Origin: Nonomuraea muscovyensis
Lineage (GTDB): Bacteria > Actinomycetota > Actinomycetes > Streptosporangiales > Streptosporangiaceae
Assembly (NCBI RefSeq): GCF_014207745.1
Contig: NZ_JACHJB010000001.1
Coordinates: 1,612,001 to 1,676,000 of the forward strand
Direction of reading: 5' to 3'
Length of the DNA: 64,000 nucleotides
Both the position numbers and the translations under genes were made by a program. The notes beneath the pieces are model-generated. The model had not been told where the DNA came from. It did no database searches and saw only the letters and a program-made list of their open reading frames with translations. Shown in pieces: positions 46,908 to 64,000 of the stretch. The stretch's first letter is position 1; the number at the start of each line of letters is the position of its first letter.

Positions 46908-48122
46908 GTGGAGTGGACCCCCGGCGCACGGGAGCTGGCCGACCTCGAGCTGCTGCTGTCCGGAGCCTTCCACCCGCTGACGGGCTTCCTCGGCCACGAC
47001 GACCTGCACGCCGTCCACGAGCGCGGCACGCTCGCCGACGGCACGCCCTGGCCGGCACCGGCGACGCTGCGCCTGCCCGACGAGGCCGCCCCCGGTGACG
47101 AGGTCACGCTGCTCGACCCCGAGGGCGTGCCGCTGGCCGTGCTGACCGTGACCGAGCGCGGCCACGACGGGCTGGCCGCCGGCCCGGTCAGGCCGCTCGG
47201 CGCGCCGGAGCACGGCCCGTTCGCCCGGCTGCACCGCACTCCCGCGCAGGTGCGCGAGGAGCTCGGCGGGCGCGCGGCGCTGGCGGTCACGATGCGGGGC
47301 CCGCTCGACGACCTCACCGAGATCACCGCCACGGCCAAGGAGCTCGACGCGGTGGTCCTGCTGCTCCCCCTCTCCTACGGCGAGCCGGGTCCGGCGGTGG
47401 TGCGGGCCGCGCTGCGGGCCAAGGAACGGCTGCCGGCGGACACCCTGGTCGTGCCCGTCCCCCTCGCCCCGCGCGAGGAGCCCGAGATCGACCTGGAGCT
47501 GCGCGAGCACGTCGCCACCGCCTACGGCGCGGCCGAGCACCTGGCCGGGCCCGAGCCGGTCAGCATCCCCGGCCCGCCCCACCGCAGGGGGCTCGTGGTG
47601 TTCTTCACCGGTCTGTCCGGATCGGGCAAGTCGACGATCGCCCGCGGCCTGCGCGACGCGCTGCTGGAGCTCGGCACCCGCACCGTCACCCACCTCGACG
47701 GCGACGTGGTGCGCGCGCTGCTGTCGAAGGGCCTGACGTTCTCCAAGGCCGATCGCGACCTCAACATCCGGCGCATCGGCTTCGTCGCCGCCGAGGCCGC
47801 CCGCCACGGCGGCCTGGCCATCTGCGCCCCCATCGCCCCCTACGCGGCCACGCGCGACGAGGTGCGCGAGATGGTCGAGTCGGTCGGGGCCGACTTCCTC
47901 CTGGTGCACGTCGCCACACCGCTGGAGGAGTGCGAGCGCCGTGACCGCAAGGGCCTGTACGCCAAGGCCCGCGCCGGGCTCATCCCCGAGTTCACCGGCG
48001 TCTCCGACCCCTACGAGGAGCCGGACGACGCCGACCTCGTCATCGACACCACGCACCTTTCGATCGAGGCGGCCGTCACCCGGGTTCTGGGCGCGCTGCG
48101 GAGCGGAGGATGGGTTCGTTGA
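46908..48122 (+). CDS. cysC: Adenylylsulfate kinase with degenerate ATP-sulfurylase-like N-terminus
   Basis: The C-terminal 190 residues are a complete APS kinase, which makes PAPS from APS: Walker A FTGLSGSGKSTIARGL (about residues 230-245), HLDGDVVRALLSKGLTFSKADRDLNIRRIGF in pieces, and RDRKGLYAKARAGLI with the FTGVSDPYEEP ending. The N-terminal part starts like the PUA-like domain of ATP sulfurylase (LADLELLLSGAFHPLTGFLG), but the QxRNP and HxGH motifs of sulfurylase catalysis are absent. ATP sulfurylase activity must therefore come from CysD/CysN, encoded 13 kb away. The start is GTG at 46908. It overlaps the transporter gene by 13 bases. Confidence 0.92.
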   Translation: MEWTPGARELADLELLLSGAFHPLTGFLGHDDLHAVHERGTLADGTPWPAPATLRLPDEAAPGDEVTLLDPEGVPLAVLTVTERGHDGLAAGPVRPLGAPEHGPFARLHRTPAQVREELGGRAALAVTMRGPLDDLTEITATAKELDAVVLLLPLSYGEPGPAVVRAALRAKERLPADTLVVPVPLAPREEPEIDLELREHVATAYGAAEHLAGPEPVSIPGPPHRRGLVVFFTGLSGSGKSTIARGLRDALLELGTRTVTHLDGDVVRALLSKGLTFSKADRDLNIRRIGFVAAEAARHGGLAICAPIAPYAATRDEVREMVESVGADFLLVHVATPLEECERRDRKGLYAKARAGLIPEFTGVSDPYEEPDDADLVIDTTHLSIEAAVTRVLGALRSGGWVR

Positions 48123-49000
48123 TCGATCTTCCCCTGATCCTCGGGTCCTTCCTCGTCGCCGTCGTCGTCGGCCTGACCGGCATGGGCGGTGGCGCGCTGA
48201 TGACGCCGATGATGATGCTGTTCTTCAACGTCCCGCCACTCGCCGCGGTCTCCAGCGACCTGGTGGCCTCGGCCGTGATGAAGCCGGTCGGCAGCGTCGT
48301 CCACCTGCGCCGGGGCACGGTCAACCTGCGACTGGTGGCCTGGCTGTGCGCGGGGTCGGTGCCGGCGGCGTTCTGCGGGGTGTTCGTGGCCCGCGCTTTC
48401 GCGGTGGGCGACGGCGTGAAGTACGCACTCGGCGTGGCGCTGCTGCTGGCCGTGGCCGGCCTGGTCGCCAAGACCCTGATCGGCGGCAGGGGCGGCACGG
48501 CGGAGGCGAGCGACGTCGTCGTGCGCCCCATCCCTACCCTACTGGTCGGTACGGTAGGCGGCCTGATCGTCGGCGTCTCCTCGGTCGGGTCCGGTTCACT
48601 CATCATCGTGGCGCTCATCGCGCTCTATCCCATGCTCAAGGCCAACCAGCTCGTCGGCACCGACCTCGTGCAGGCCGTGCCCCTGGTGACCTCGGCGGCG
48701 CTGGGCCACCTGCTCTTCGGCGACTTCCAGCTCGACCTCACGCTGTCGCTGCTGCTCGGCGCGATCCCGGGCGTCTACCTCGGCGCCCGTGTCTCCTCCC
48801 GGGCCCCGGGCGGCCTCATCCGGGCGCTGCTCGCGATCGTGCTGCTCGCCTCGGCGCTCAAGCTGCTCGACGTGGACAACATGGTCACGCTGTGGATCCT
48901 GCTGGCCGCCGCGGCCGTCACCGTCGCCGGCTGGCGATGGCGGGTCAGGGCCGCGGCACGCGCGTCGAGCGAAACAGCGGATCTCGCGCGAGCTCGCTGA
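48110..49000 (+). CDS. TauE/SafE family anion transporter
   Basis: This 296-residue protein has eight or so membrane helices in two related halves, with the family motif VVGLTGMGGGALMTPMMML in the first half and GVSSVGSGSLIIVALI in the second. The family moves sulfite, sulfoacetate, taurine-related or sulfate anions. Its ATG lies inside the end of cysC, which points to a sulfur compound as substrate; the direction of transport is unknown. The 3' end overlaps the convergent hydrolase gene by 56 bases. Confidence 0.88.
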   Translation: MGSLIDLPLILGSFLVAVVVGLTGMGGGALMTPMMMLFFNVPPLAAVSSDLVASAVMKPVGSVVHLRRGTVNLRLVAWLCAGSVPAAFCGVFVARAFAVGDGVKYALGVALLLAVAGLVAKTLIGGRGGTAEASDVVVRPIPTLLVGTVGGLIVGVSSVGSGSLIIVALIALYPMLKANQLVGTDLVQAVPLVTSAALGHLLFGDFQLDLTLSLLLGAIPGVYLGARVSSRAPGGLIRALLAIVLLASALKLLDVDNMVTLWILLAAAAVTVAGWRWRVRAAARASSETADLARAR

Positions 49001-63077: not shown

Positions 63078-63842
63078 TCAGCGGTGCAGGTCGCGAATCC
63101 CGGCCAGCAGGGTAGGCGCCAAGTCGGGTAGGGAAACCAGGATATCCGGTAGTGAGGGGTCCGGCTGGTTGTAGGTCAGCGCCGCGCCGTCAATCCGGCT
63201 GGCGTGGGCCCCCGCGGCCTGCGCGACGGCCACCGGGGCTGCCGAGTCCCACTCGTACTGGCCGCCCGCGTGGACGTAGGCCTCGACCTCGCCGGTGAGC
63301 ACCGCGGAGATCTTCGCCCCGGCCGACCCGATGGGCACCAGGTCGGCGCCCACGAGGTGGGCCAGGTTGCGCACGAACTCCGGCGGCCGGGTGCGGCTCA
63401 CCGCGATGCGGAACCTGCCGCCCTGGTGCGCGGGCAGCTTGGGCGGCTCGCCGGTGCCGAGGGTGCGGCCCTGCGCGGGCAGCGCGACCGCTCCCGCGGC
63501 CAGCTCGCCGCGCTCCCACAGGGCCACGTGCACCGCCCAGTCGGACCGGCCCTCCTCGGCGAACTCGCGGGTGCCGTCGAGCGGGTCGACGATCCACACC
63601 CGCTCGGCTTCGAGCCGGCTCGGGTCGAGGCGTTCCTCCCGGGTGGCCTCCTCCGACAGCACGTGGTCGCTCGGGCGGAGCCGGGCCAGCGCCTCCATGA
63701 GGAAGACGTGGGACTCGCGGTCGCCGGCGGCGCGCAGGGCGGCCGCGTCGGCGAAGCCCTCCCGCGCACGTACGGCCAGCAGCCGCTCGCCGGCCTCGGT
63801 CGCCAGGTCGGCGGCGAGGGAGTGGTCGTCGCGAATCGTCAT
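63078..63842 (-). CDS. cysQ: 3'(2'),5'-bisphosphate nucleotidase (CysQ-type PAP phosphatase)
   Basis: This 254-residue metal-dependent phosphatase converts PAP, the by-product of every sulfotransferase reaction, to AMP. The inositol-monophosphatase fold motifs are present: VLSEEATREE, WIVDPLDGTREFAEE (metal ligands) and YEWDSAAPVAVAQAAGA. PAP inhibits sulfotransferases, so a cysQ beside three sulfotransferase genes is functionally apt. The ATG shares a base with the stop of the glycosylphosphotransferase gene (TGATG), so the two are translationally coupled. Confidence 0.93.
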   Translation of the reverse strand: MTIRDDHSLAADLATEAGERLLAVRAREGFADAAALRAAGDRESHVFLMEALARLRPSDHVLSEEATREERLDPSRLEAERVWIVDPLDGTREFAEEGRSDWAVHVALWERGELAAGAVALPAQGRTLGTGEPPKLPAHQGGRFRIAVSRTRPPEFVRNLAHLVGADLVPIGSAGAKISAVLTGEVEAYVHAGGQYEWDSAAPVAVAQAAGAHASRIDGAALTYNQPDPSLPDILVSLPDLAPTLLAGIRDLHR

Positions 63843-64000
63843 CAGTAAGCTCCTTGCCCGCGGGCGACAGCCGACCAAGTCTTCCACAGGATCTGGAGGT
63901 CGAGCGTGAGGGACCAGTTCTCCACGTAACGCAGGTCCAGCCGCACGGATTCCTCCCACGACAGGTCCGACCTGCCGCTGACCTGCCACAAGCCGGTCAG
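63842..64000 (-). CDS. C-terminal end of a polyprenyl glycosylphosphotransferase (partial)
   Basis: Only the last 52 residues are in the window. LTGLWQVSGRSDLSWEES, then RLDLRYVENWSLTLDLQIL and KTWSAVARGQGAY, form the very conserved C-terminus of WbaP/CpsE-type enzymes that transfer the first sugar phosphate to undecaprenyl phosphate. The gene continues beyond the right edge. It starts the transcript that continues into cysQ, cysD and cysN, tying sulfate activation directly to initiation of polysaccharide synthesis. Confidence 0.92.
   Translation of the reverse strand: MTGLWQVSGRSDLSWEESVRLDLRYVENWSLTLDLQILWKTWSAVARGQGAY

Follow-up and report, generated by a model that had tools for sequence, protein, structure and literature searches.

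Gene content of the mfd-pth interval

The window analysed here (G000:C1:1612001-1676000) is a 64,000-nucleotide stretch of the chromosome of Nonomuraea muscovyensis, part of a 9.23-Mb genome that is 99.97% complete. The interval between mfd (42048-45536, minus strand; positions count from the first base of the window) and pth (65395-65979, minus strand, outside the window) is filled by a locus of ~19 kb, in which sulfate-activation genes flank genes of a Wzx/Wzy-type polysaccharide pathway and three sulfotransferase genes. From the mfd side, the order is mfd, a cupin-like gene, a methyltransferase, CysC, a TauE/SafE-type transporter (TauE), a GH26-like lipoprotein, Wzz, a Wzy-like gene, a kinase-like gene (Kin), sulfotransferase A (STA), Wzx, sulfotransferase B (STB), a WecG-type glycosyltransferase, a family 2 glycosyltransferase (GT2), sulfotransferase C (STC), CysN, CysD, CysQ, an initiating polyprenyl glycosylphosphotransferase (GPT), and pth. 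An earlier interpretation made from the letters of the window alone (the sequence-only reading) had described a Wzx/Wzy-type polysaccharide locus with three sulfotransferases beside genes that make their sulfate donor and remove its by-product, and this description stands. Every gene that it named is present as an intact frame, the GPT being whole only beyond the window. Its "many" 4-base overlaps come down to three (Wzz/Wzy, Kin/STA, and Wzx/STB); two more overlaps, of 1 and 13 bases, hinge on the choice of start.

Four genes belong to sulfate activation and the disposal of its by-product. CysN (60848-62110, minus strand), the GTPase subunit of ATP sulfurylase, scores 581.6 bits on TIGR02034 (cut-off, 336), and CysD (62115-63029, minus strand), the catalytic subunit, scores 454.9 bits on TIGR02039 (cut-off, 396.6). 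CysC (46908-48122, plus strand), an adenosine 5'-phosphosulfate (APS) kinase whose N-terminal domain is a decayed, ATP-sulfurylase-like one, matches PF01583 (APS_kinase; E = 3e-56) and PF14306 (PUA_2; E = 3e-17). The CysQ-like protein (63078-63842, minus strand; PF00459) has as its nearest solved chain and best solved relative 5djf, a phosphatase of 3'-phosphoadenosine 5'-phosphate (PAP) (E = 1.2e-67), and falls under the NCBIfam equivalog cut-off of TIGR01331 (104.5 versus 228.8).

All three sulfotransferases exceed their Pfam cut-offs. STA (53935-54789, plus strand; PF00685 and PF13469) has a profile match to heparan-sulfate sulfotransferases, and STB (56156-57130, plus strand) and STC (59800-60672, minus strand) match PF13469 with E values of 2e-10 and 2e-16, respectively. 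The Wzx-like flippase (54777-56159, plus strand) scores 25.9 bits on PF01554 (MatE; cut-off, 24.9), and the Wzz-like chain-length protein (50354-51664, plus strand) is over the cut-off of PF02706 (E = 6e-9). The Wzy-like polymerase (51661-53007, plus strand) is a tentative assignment supported by synteny, its Wzy_C match being under the cut-off (PF04932; E = 1.5e-4; 22.0 bits, cut-off 31.7); the gene is kept in relatives. The WecG/TagA/CpsF-type glycosyltransferase (57093 to about 57839, minus strand, start uncertain) scores 136.4 bits on TIGR00696 (cut-off, 69), GT2 (58892-59782, minus strand) matches PF00535 (E = 3e-18), and GPT (63842-65302, minus strand, with 63842-64000 inside the window) scores 318 bits on TIGR03025 (cut-off, 295.6) in the part past 64000. 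Further glycosyltransferases had been expected past 64000; in the 40 kb that we read beyond that point, GPT is completed (to 65302) and is followed by pth, rplY, prs, and glmU, with no other glycosyltransferase before pth. As only the remainder of GPT lies there, the local genes give three sugar-transfer steps.

Kin (53024-53938, plus strand) has a small-molecule-kinase fold and no Pfam match, and it accompanies STA in many families. It was left unlisted by the sequence-only reading, as was the S-adenosylmethionine-dependent methyltransferase upstream of CysC (46130-46837, plus strand; PF13489 and PF08241 over cut-off). An unusually long stretch of ~1 kb separates the WecG-type gene from GT2 and holds tandem repeats at 57944-58098 (units of 15/30 bases) and 58628-58712 (36 bases); the corresponding spacing has a median of ~140 bases in 60 named loci but measures 858 bases in Nonomuraea indica.

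Sulfate activation and the fate of PAPS

Across the genome, PF01507 matches this CysD and one CysH and nothing else, PF01583 matches this CysC and one partial sequence at 21.7 bits, and PF01747, the family of Sat, finds no match anywhere in the 99.97% complete assembly. CysDN is the sole detected ATP sulfurylase and CysC the sole full-length APS kinase of this organism. Because this leaves a single CysD, a single full-length APS kinase, and no Sat that could be detected, sulfate assimilation must share CysDN, and the claim of the sequence-only reading that the locus has its own supply of 3'-phosphoadenosine 5'-phosphosulfate (PAPS) is not upheld.

CysC has no match to the ATP-sulfurylase catalytic family PF01747 at E = 0.01. 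By both sequence and fold, the solved structure closest to it is 3cr8, the two-domain APS kinase of Thiobacillus denitrificans, in which a sulfurylase-like domain likewise precedes the kinase and is described, in a title cited in PMC13213808, as being without sulfurylase activity; in CysC the sulfurylase part is shortened further. Judged by its domains, the enzyme of the window probably makes PAPS only, and since it looks like an APS kinase whose sulfurylase domain has decayed, supplying PAPS for sulfation is its likely role. Among longer relatives the sulfurylase domain decays by degrees. The 490-amino-acid (aa) protein of locus L083 exceeds the PF01747 cut-off in two stretches (36.5 bits versus 24.3), those of L082 (494 aa; 20.3 bits) and L207 (470 aa; 19.2 bits) remain under it, and that of the window (404 aa) has no match and lacks a further stretch. 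It is possible that this series traces a bifunctional enzyme turning into a kinase with a structural domain.

CysH is encoded on another contig, where it adjoins a gene of the sulfite/nitrite reductase family, and no cysDN lies within the 20 kb read there. Against the APS-reductase model it reaches 231.5, just short of the cut-off of 235.3, and against the PAPS-reductase equivalog it reaches 169.9, well short of 254.2. Its sequence has the CC and CxxC cysteine pairs that mark APS reductases, and CysH proteins of the Bacillus subtilis type are able to take both APS and PAPS. The cysteine pairs thus favor APS as the substrate, while the family models leave APS versus PAPS unsettled. If CysH takes APS, the PAPS made by CysC would go to sulfation alone.

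Conservation among relatives

In a scan of named genomes, the closest named relative was N. indica, which has the same layout (STA, 91%; CysN and CysD, 98%). The counts for named loci given here refer to the best 80 of 567 relatives, 65 of which have ~10 kb on both sides, and are therefore uninformative on breadth. The order Wzz-Wzy-Kin-STA-Wzx-STB is kept in 64 of the 65 and CysC is present in 63. So constant an order speaks against the frames having come together by chance. Named hosts include Streptosporangium, Planomonospora, Planobispora, Microbispora, and Nonomuraea.

The accessory genes vary more in their retention. The GH26-like lipoprotein (48945-50072, minus strand, start uncertain), which has a visible lipobox and just misses the PF02156 cut-off (18.1 versus 20.2), is kept in all 65 loci and the methyltransferase in 62, while TauE, a membrane transporter (48110-49000, plus strand; PF01925, E = 2e-39), is found in 40 and the small cupin-like gene that separates mfd from the methyltransferase (45603-46058) in only 24.

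Within the family group, 195 of 200 genomes had a CysD match. From these 195 we chose 58 contexts, not at random, which represent 44 of 68 genus groups and include 10 from the window's own genus. The cysQDN genes stand together and intact in all 58, pth is in view in 56, and the 10 same-genus contexts share the layout of the window as far as each stretch extends. Sulfotransferase homologues lie beside cysQDN in 45 contexts, and in 40 of the 48 whose sequence extends 12 kb or more past CysD. The presence of the initiating transferase tracks theirs: at a minimum of 40% of its length it was found in 43 of the 45 contexts with a sulfotransferase and in 3 of the 13 without (Fisher P = 3e-7, shared ancestry ignored), and at 80% coverage it was found in 42 of the 45.

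Some family members depart from this arrangement. In L240 (genome G042), only Kin and STA remain between mfd and cysN, and two fragments of the initiating transferase, at 9% each, lie beside pth; this is perhaps a decaying cassette. L079 and L080 have RmlA/B/D-like genes of a dTDP-rhamnose-type set at the pth-GPT-cysQDN site, without a match to the sulfotransferases of the window, as if a different polysaccharide cassette occupied the same frame.

Across the class, STA matches at E <= 0.001 occur in 139 of 394 genomes (62 of 137 genus groups), many of them weak; strong matches (E <= 1e-40) occur in 63 genomes from 11 family groups of the actinobacterial class. Of these 63 genomes, 62 also have an APS-kinase match, compared with 238 of the other 331. 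Of 20 loci outside the family, 13, from nine families, have five or more of the seven core genes STA, Kin, Wzy, Wzx, Wzz, GT2, and STC. STA stands alone in L212-L214, which are weak matches, L210 likewise shows fewer than five of the core genes, and contig ends cut L195, L196, and L204. Layouts vary in these other families. Genome G239 has the frame of the window with another inner order (eno-mazG-mfd-TauE-[cassette genes]-CysN-CysD-CysQ-GPT) and CysC on another contig; in G226 the cassette lies between cysQDN and TauE-CysC, and in G550 it adjoins CysC-TauE-cysQDN. In three families (f20, f28, and f36), the cassette is inside or next to the cys block.

Phylogenetic conflict between the frame and its contents

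We compared trees of STA (33 loci plus the window; L204 and L212-L214 were left out) and of CysD+CysN (28 loci plus the window), with 17 of the 58 family contexts in each. In the CysD+CysN tree, which sets the 17 family loci and the window against 11 loci from other families, the family forms one clade (support 100/99), recovered in all 200 bootstrap trees. In the STA tree the family is not one clade: five label changes are needed, none of the 200 bootstrap trees unites it, and a one-clade tree is rejected by the approximately unbiased test (P = 0.00095, or 0.00022 without two long rows). In family members, cassettes that differ in descent nevertheless all adjoin the same edge, beside cysN. 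Since cysDN forms one clade in the family but STA does not, the polysaccharide-sulfotransferase cassettes seem to have been exchanged within a frame of fixed genes that make PAPS and remove PAP, and this is the simplest reading of the two trees.

A predicted sulfated surface polysaccharide and its alternatives

Taken together, these observations lead us to predict, with a probability of roughly three in four, that this locus, which holds the only detected CysDN and CysC of the genome around Wzx/Wzy-like genes and three sulfotransferases, makes and exports a sulfated surface polysaccharide. In the pathway we propose, CysDN would convert sulfate to APS and CysC would convert APS to PAPS. GPT, the WecG-type enzyme, and GT2 would build a short lipid-linked repeat, of about three sugars as far as the local genes go, which sulfotransferases A, B, and C would sulfate with PAPS as the donor. 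Wzx would then flip the repeat, Wzy together with Wzz would polymerise it, and CysQ would clear the PAP left after sulfation. Additional decorations likely come from Kin and the methyltransferase, and trimming of the chain outside the cell is likely the task of the GH26-like lipoprotein. APS from CysDN would also feed assimilation through the CysH encoded elsewhere. The cys block would act as the fixed frame and the polysaccharide genes within it as an apparently exchangeable cassette. More tentatively, at a little short of even odds, we would extend this to a widespread capsule-like system of actinobacteria, in which Wzx/Wzy-sulfotransferase cassettes are swapped between flanks that make PAPS and remove PAP (CysC, CysDN, and CysQ), tying the branch point of sulfate activation to the sulfation of a surface polymer.

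Several points weigh against this prediction. Both here and in Actinoplanes, the polymer and its sulfate ester are predictions, and the Wzy-like and GH26-like assignments lie below Pfam cut-offs. CysH also exceeds the thresholds of two broader models that bear the name phosphoadenylyl-sulfate reductase (266.3 versus 154 and 200.2 versus 165.1), and if it takes PAPS, CysC would serve assimilation too. PAPS also has other uses, as sulfotransferases occur in genomes without an STA match: PF13469 proteins were found in 10 of 10 family genomes searched, including five known to lack such a match, and the genome of the window encodes three further PF00685 proteins. The two Fisher tests, of APS kinase with strong STA and of the initiating transferase with sulfotransferases, ignore shared ancestry. 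In families f14, f24, f26, and f37, among fetched genomes with CysD contexts read, the cassette and cysDN lie apart. Unrecognised paralogues of STA could also produce its non-monophyly, and they are the main alternative to exchange. In the wps-1 cluster of Actinoplanes missouriensis, which is compared below, one of the two sulfotransferase mutants, that in wpsB, formed sporangia that looked normal by scanning electron microscopy, although ten times fewer spores were released (PMC13390465).

The sequence-only reading had taken broad conservation of the cys genes in relatives without the sulfotransferases and wzx/wzy as a mark of chance adjacency. Such relatives exist, which bears out this objection in part but does not rob the adjacency of meaning. 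In 8 of the 48 contexts (L079, L080, L082, L083, L234, L235, L238, and L243), cysQDN has no sulfotransferase or Wzx/Wzy homologue alongside. The order in L083 is pth-cysQDN-TauE-CysC-methyltransferase-mfd. L082 and L243 likewise have cysQDN enclosed by pth and mfd, with CysC just past mfd; in these three, the polysaccharide genes of the window have no match in between, where a few small frames are unannotated. Outside the family, L224 and L227 likewise have cysQDN at pth without the cassette, L224 (genome G422) as a bare mazG-mfd-CysC-TauE-CysN-CysD-CysQ-pth-rplY-prs-glmU block, with its polysaccharide cassette on another contig. As cysQDN stands at pth without the cassette, the cys genes are independent of it, which is a further point against the prediction. 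One alternative is that cysNDQ, cysC, and TauE are simply ancestral housekeeping neighbors of pth and mfd, at a permissive site that polysaccharide genes entered, so that cellular PAPS is used and the adjacency is functionally meaningless. The bare blocks of L224, L083, L082, and L243 and the dTDP-rhamnose-type set at the same place in L079 and L080 fit this account; however, sulfotransferases are there in 40 of the 48 contexts, differing cassettes occupy the same frame, the cassette is next to or within the cys block in f20, f28, and f36 as well, and the initiating transferase goes with it. We therefore regard mere ancestral adjacency as unlikely, if a serious competitor.

The same bare blocks also speak against the opposite possibility, that the cys genes serve the polysaccharide only. 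Their position within the locus would agree with such a dedicated supply, as would the fact that assimilation would need neither CysQ nor CysC if CysH takes APS; but with no second ATP sulfurylase found in the genome, assimilation must use CysDN, and we consider this very improbable. It is also conceivable that the substrate of the sulfotransferases is not a free polysaccharide but a small lipid-linked glycan, a glycopolymer of the wall, or a metabolite that is secreted. Sulfated glycolipids are known from other actinobacteria, and the local genes encode only three sugar-transfer steps. Against this, Wzx, Wzy, and Wzz-like genes occur together in 64 of the 65 named loci and STA is of the heparan-sulfate, and hence polysaccharide, sulfotransferase type, which makes such a substrate improbable. 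A sulfated surface polysaccharide thus remains our preferred interpretation.

Comparison with known systems

The sequence-only reading knew of no described locus with this layout, a statement that is now outdated. The capsule loci of Vibrio sp. KMM 8419 and Cobetia marina KMM 1449 likewise join PAPS-making genes to sulfotransferases: the available text describes either cysC, cysN, and cysD or cysNC, cysD, and cysQ with a permease, and sulfated polymer structures are reported (PMC11641403, PMC11766843). With these loci published, there is precedent for PAPS genes paired with a polysaccharide locus. As far as those descriptions extend, the marine loci differ in their export by ABC transporters and their Gram-negative hosts, and the Vibrio cys genes are second copies, whereas those of the window are the only copy found. 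The synechan (xss) cluster of Synechocystis 6803 also combines a Wzx/Wzy pathway with sulfotransferases, as here, but has eight glycosyltransferases, and PAPS, CysC, and CysD are absent from the text passages available to us (PMC8205485). Papers of 2021 and 2026 call bacterial sulfated polysaccharides, in the parts seen, exclusive to cyanobacteria, a statement contradicted by the marine bacteria with reported sulfated capsule structures. If our interpretation is true, a conserved frame-and-cassette locus, with strong STA matches in 11 family groups, would make sulfated surface polymers a common trait of the class. In the titles and abstract openings covered, and in the named papers beyond them (most subscription papers being outside this scope), we found no description of a nested mfd-pth frame or of cassette exchange. 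What seems new here is that the cysDN genes of the family form one clade while the central sulfotransferase does not, hence the apparent exchange of cassettes in a fixed frame.

The closest counterpart is wps-1 of A. missouriensis (AMIS_7280-7380 plus AMIS_7390; PMC13390465, 2026). By the gene descriptions in the available text, wps-1 has GT2 and WecG-type glycosyltransferases, GH26, a methyltransferase, Wzx, a heparan-type sulfotransferase, a kinase-like gene (WpsI, the counterpart of Kin by position), Wzy, Wzz, a second sulfotransferase, and a neighbor of the sulfate adenylyltransferase (SAT)/APS-kinase family, and the window has all of these, its Wzy-like gene by a weak match and synteny. 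The locus-tag order Wzx-sulfotransferase-kinase-Wzy-Wzz-SAT/APS kinase matches that of the window, which has TauE and GH26 between CysC and Wzz and adds a third sulfotransferase, TauE, GPT, and cysQDN in one interval. The DUF4262 gene (WpsD, dispensable in Actinoplanes) did not turn up in Pfam scans of the window.

According to the authors, normal sporangia form only when the wps-1 genes except wpsD and the adjacent gene of the SAT/APS-kinase family are present, and sulfation is left unverified (PMC13390465). They describe the phenotype of AMIS_7390 as unexpected and connect it with APS for amino acids; cysD, cysN, and PAPS go unmentioned in the text of the paper that was available to us (PMC13390465). 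Judged by its description, AMIS_7390 probably shares the domains of CysC and would be the PAPS source of the wps-1 sulfotransferases. The likely reason for the severe sporangium defect upon its loss is then the need for PAPS for the polymer, not for APS for cysteine. To our knowledge, Microbispora, which is among the hosts of the locus, forms no sporangia, so the role of the polymer is probably wider than that of a sporangium matrix.

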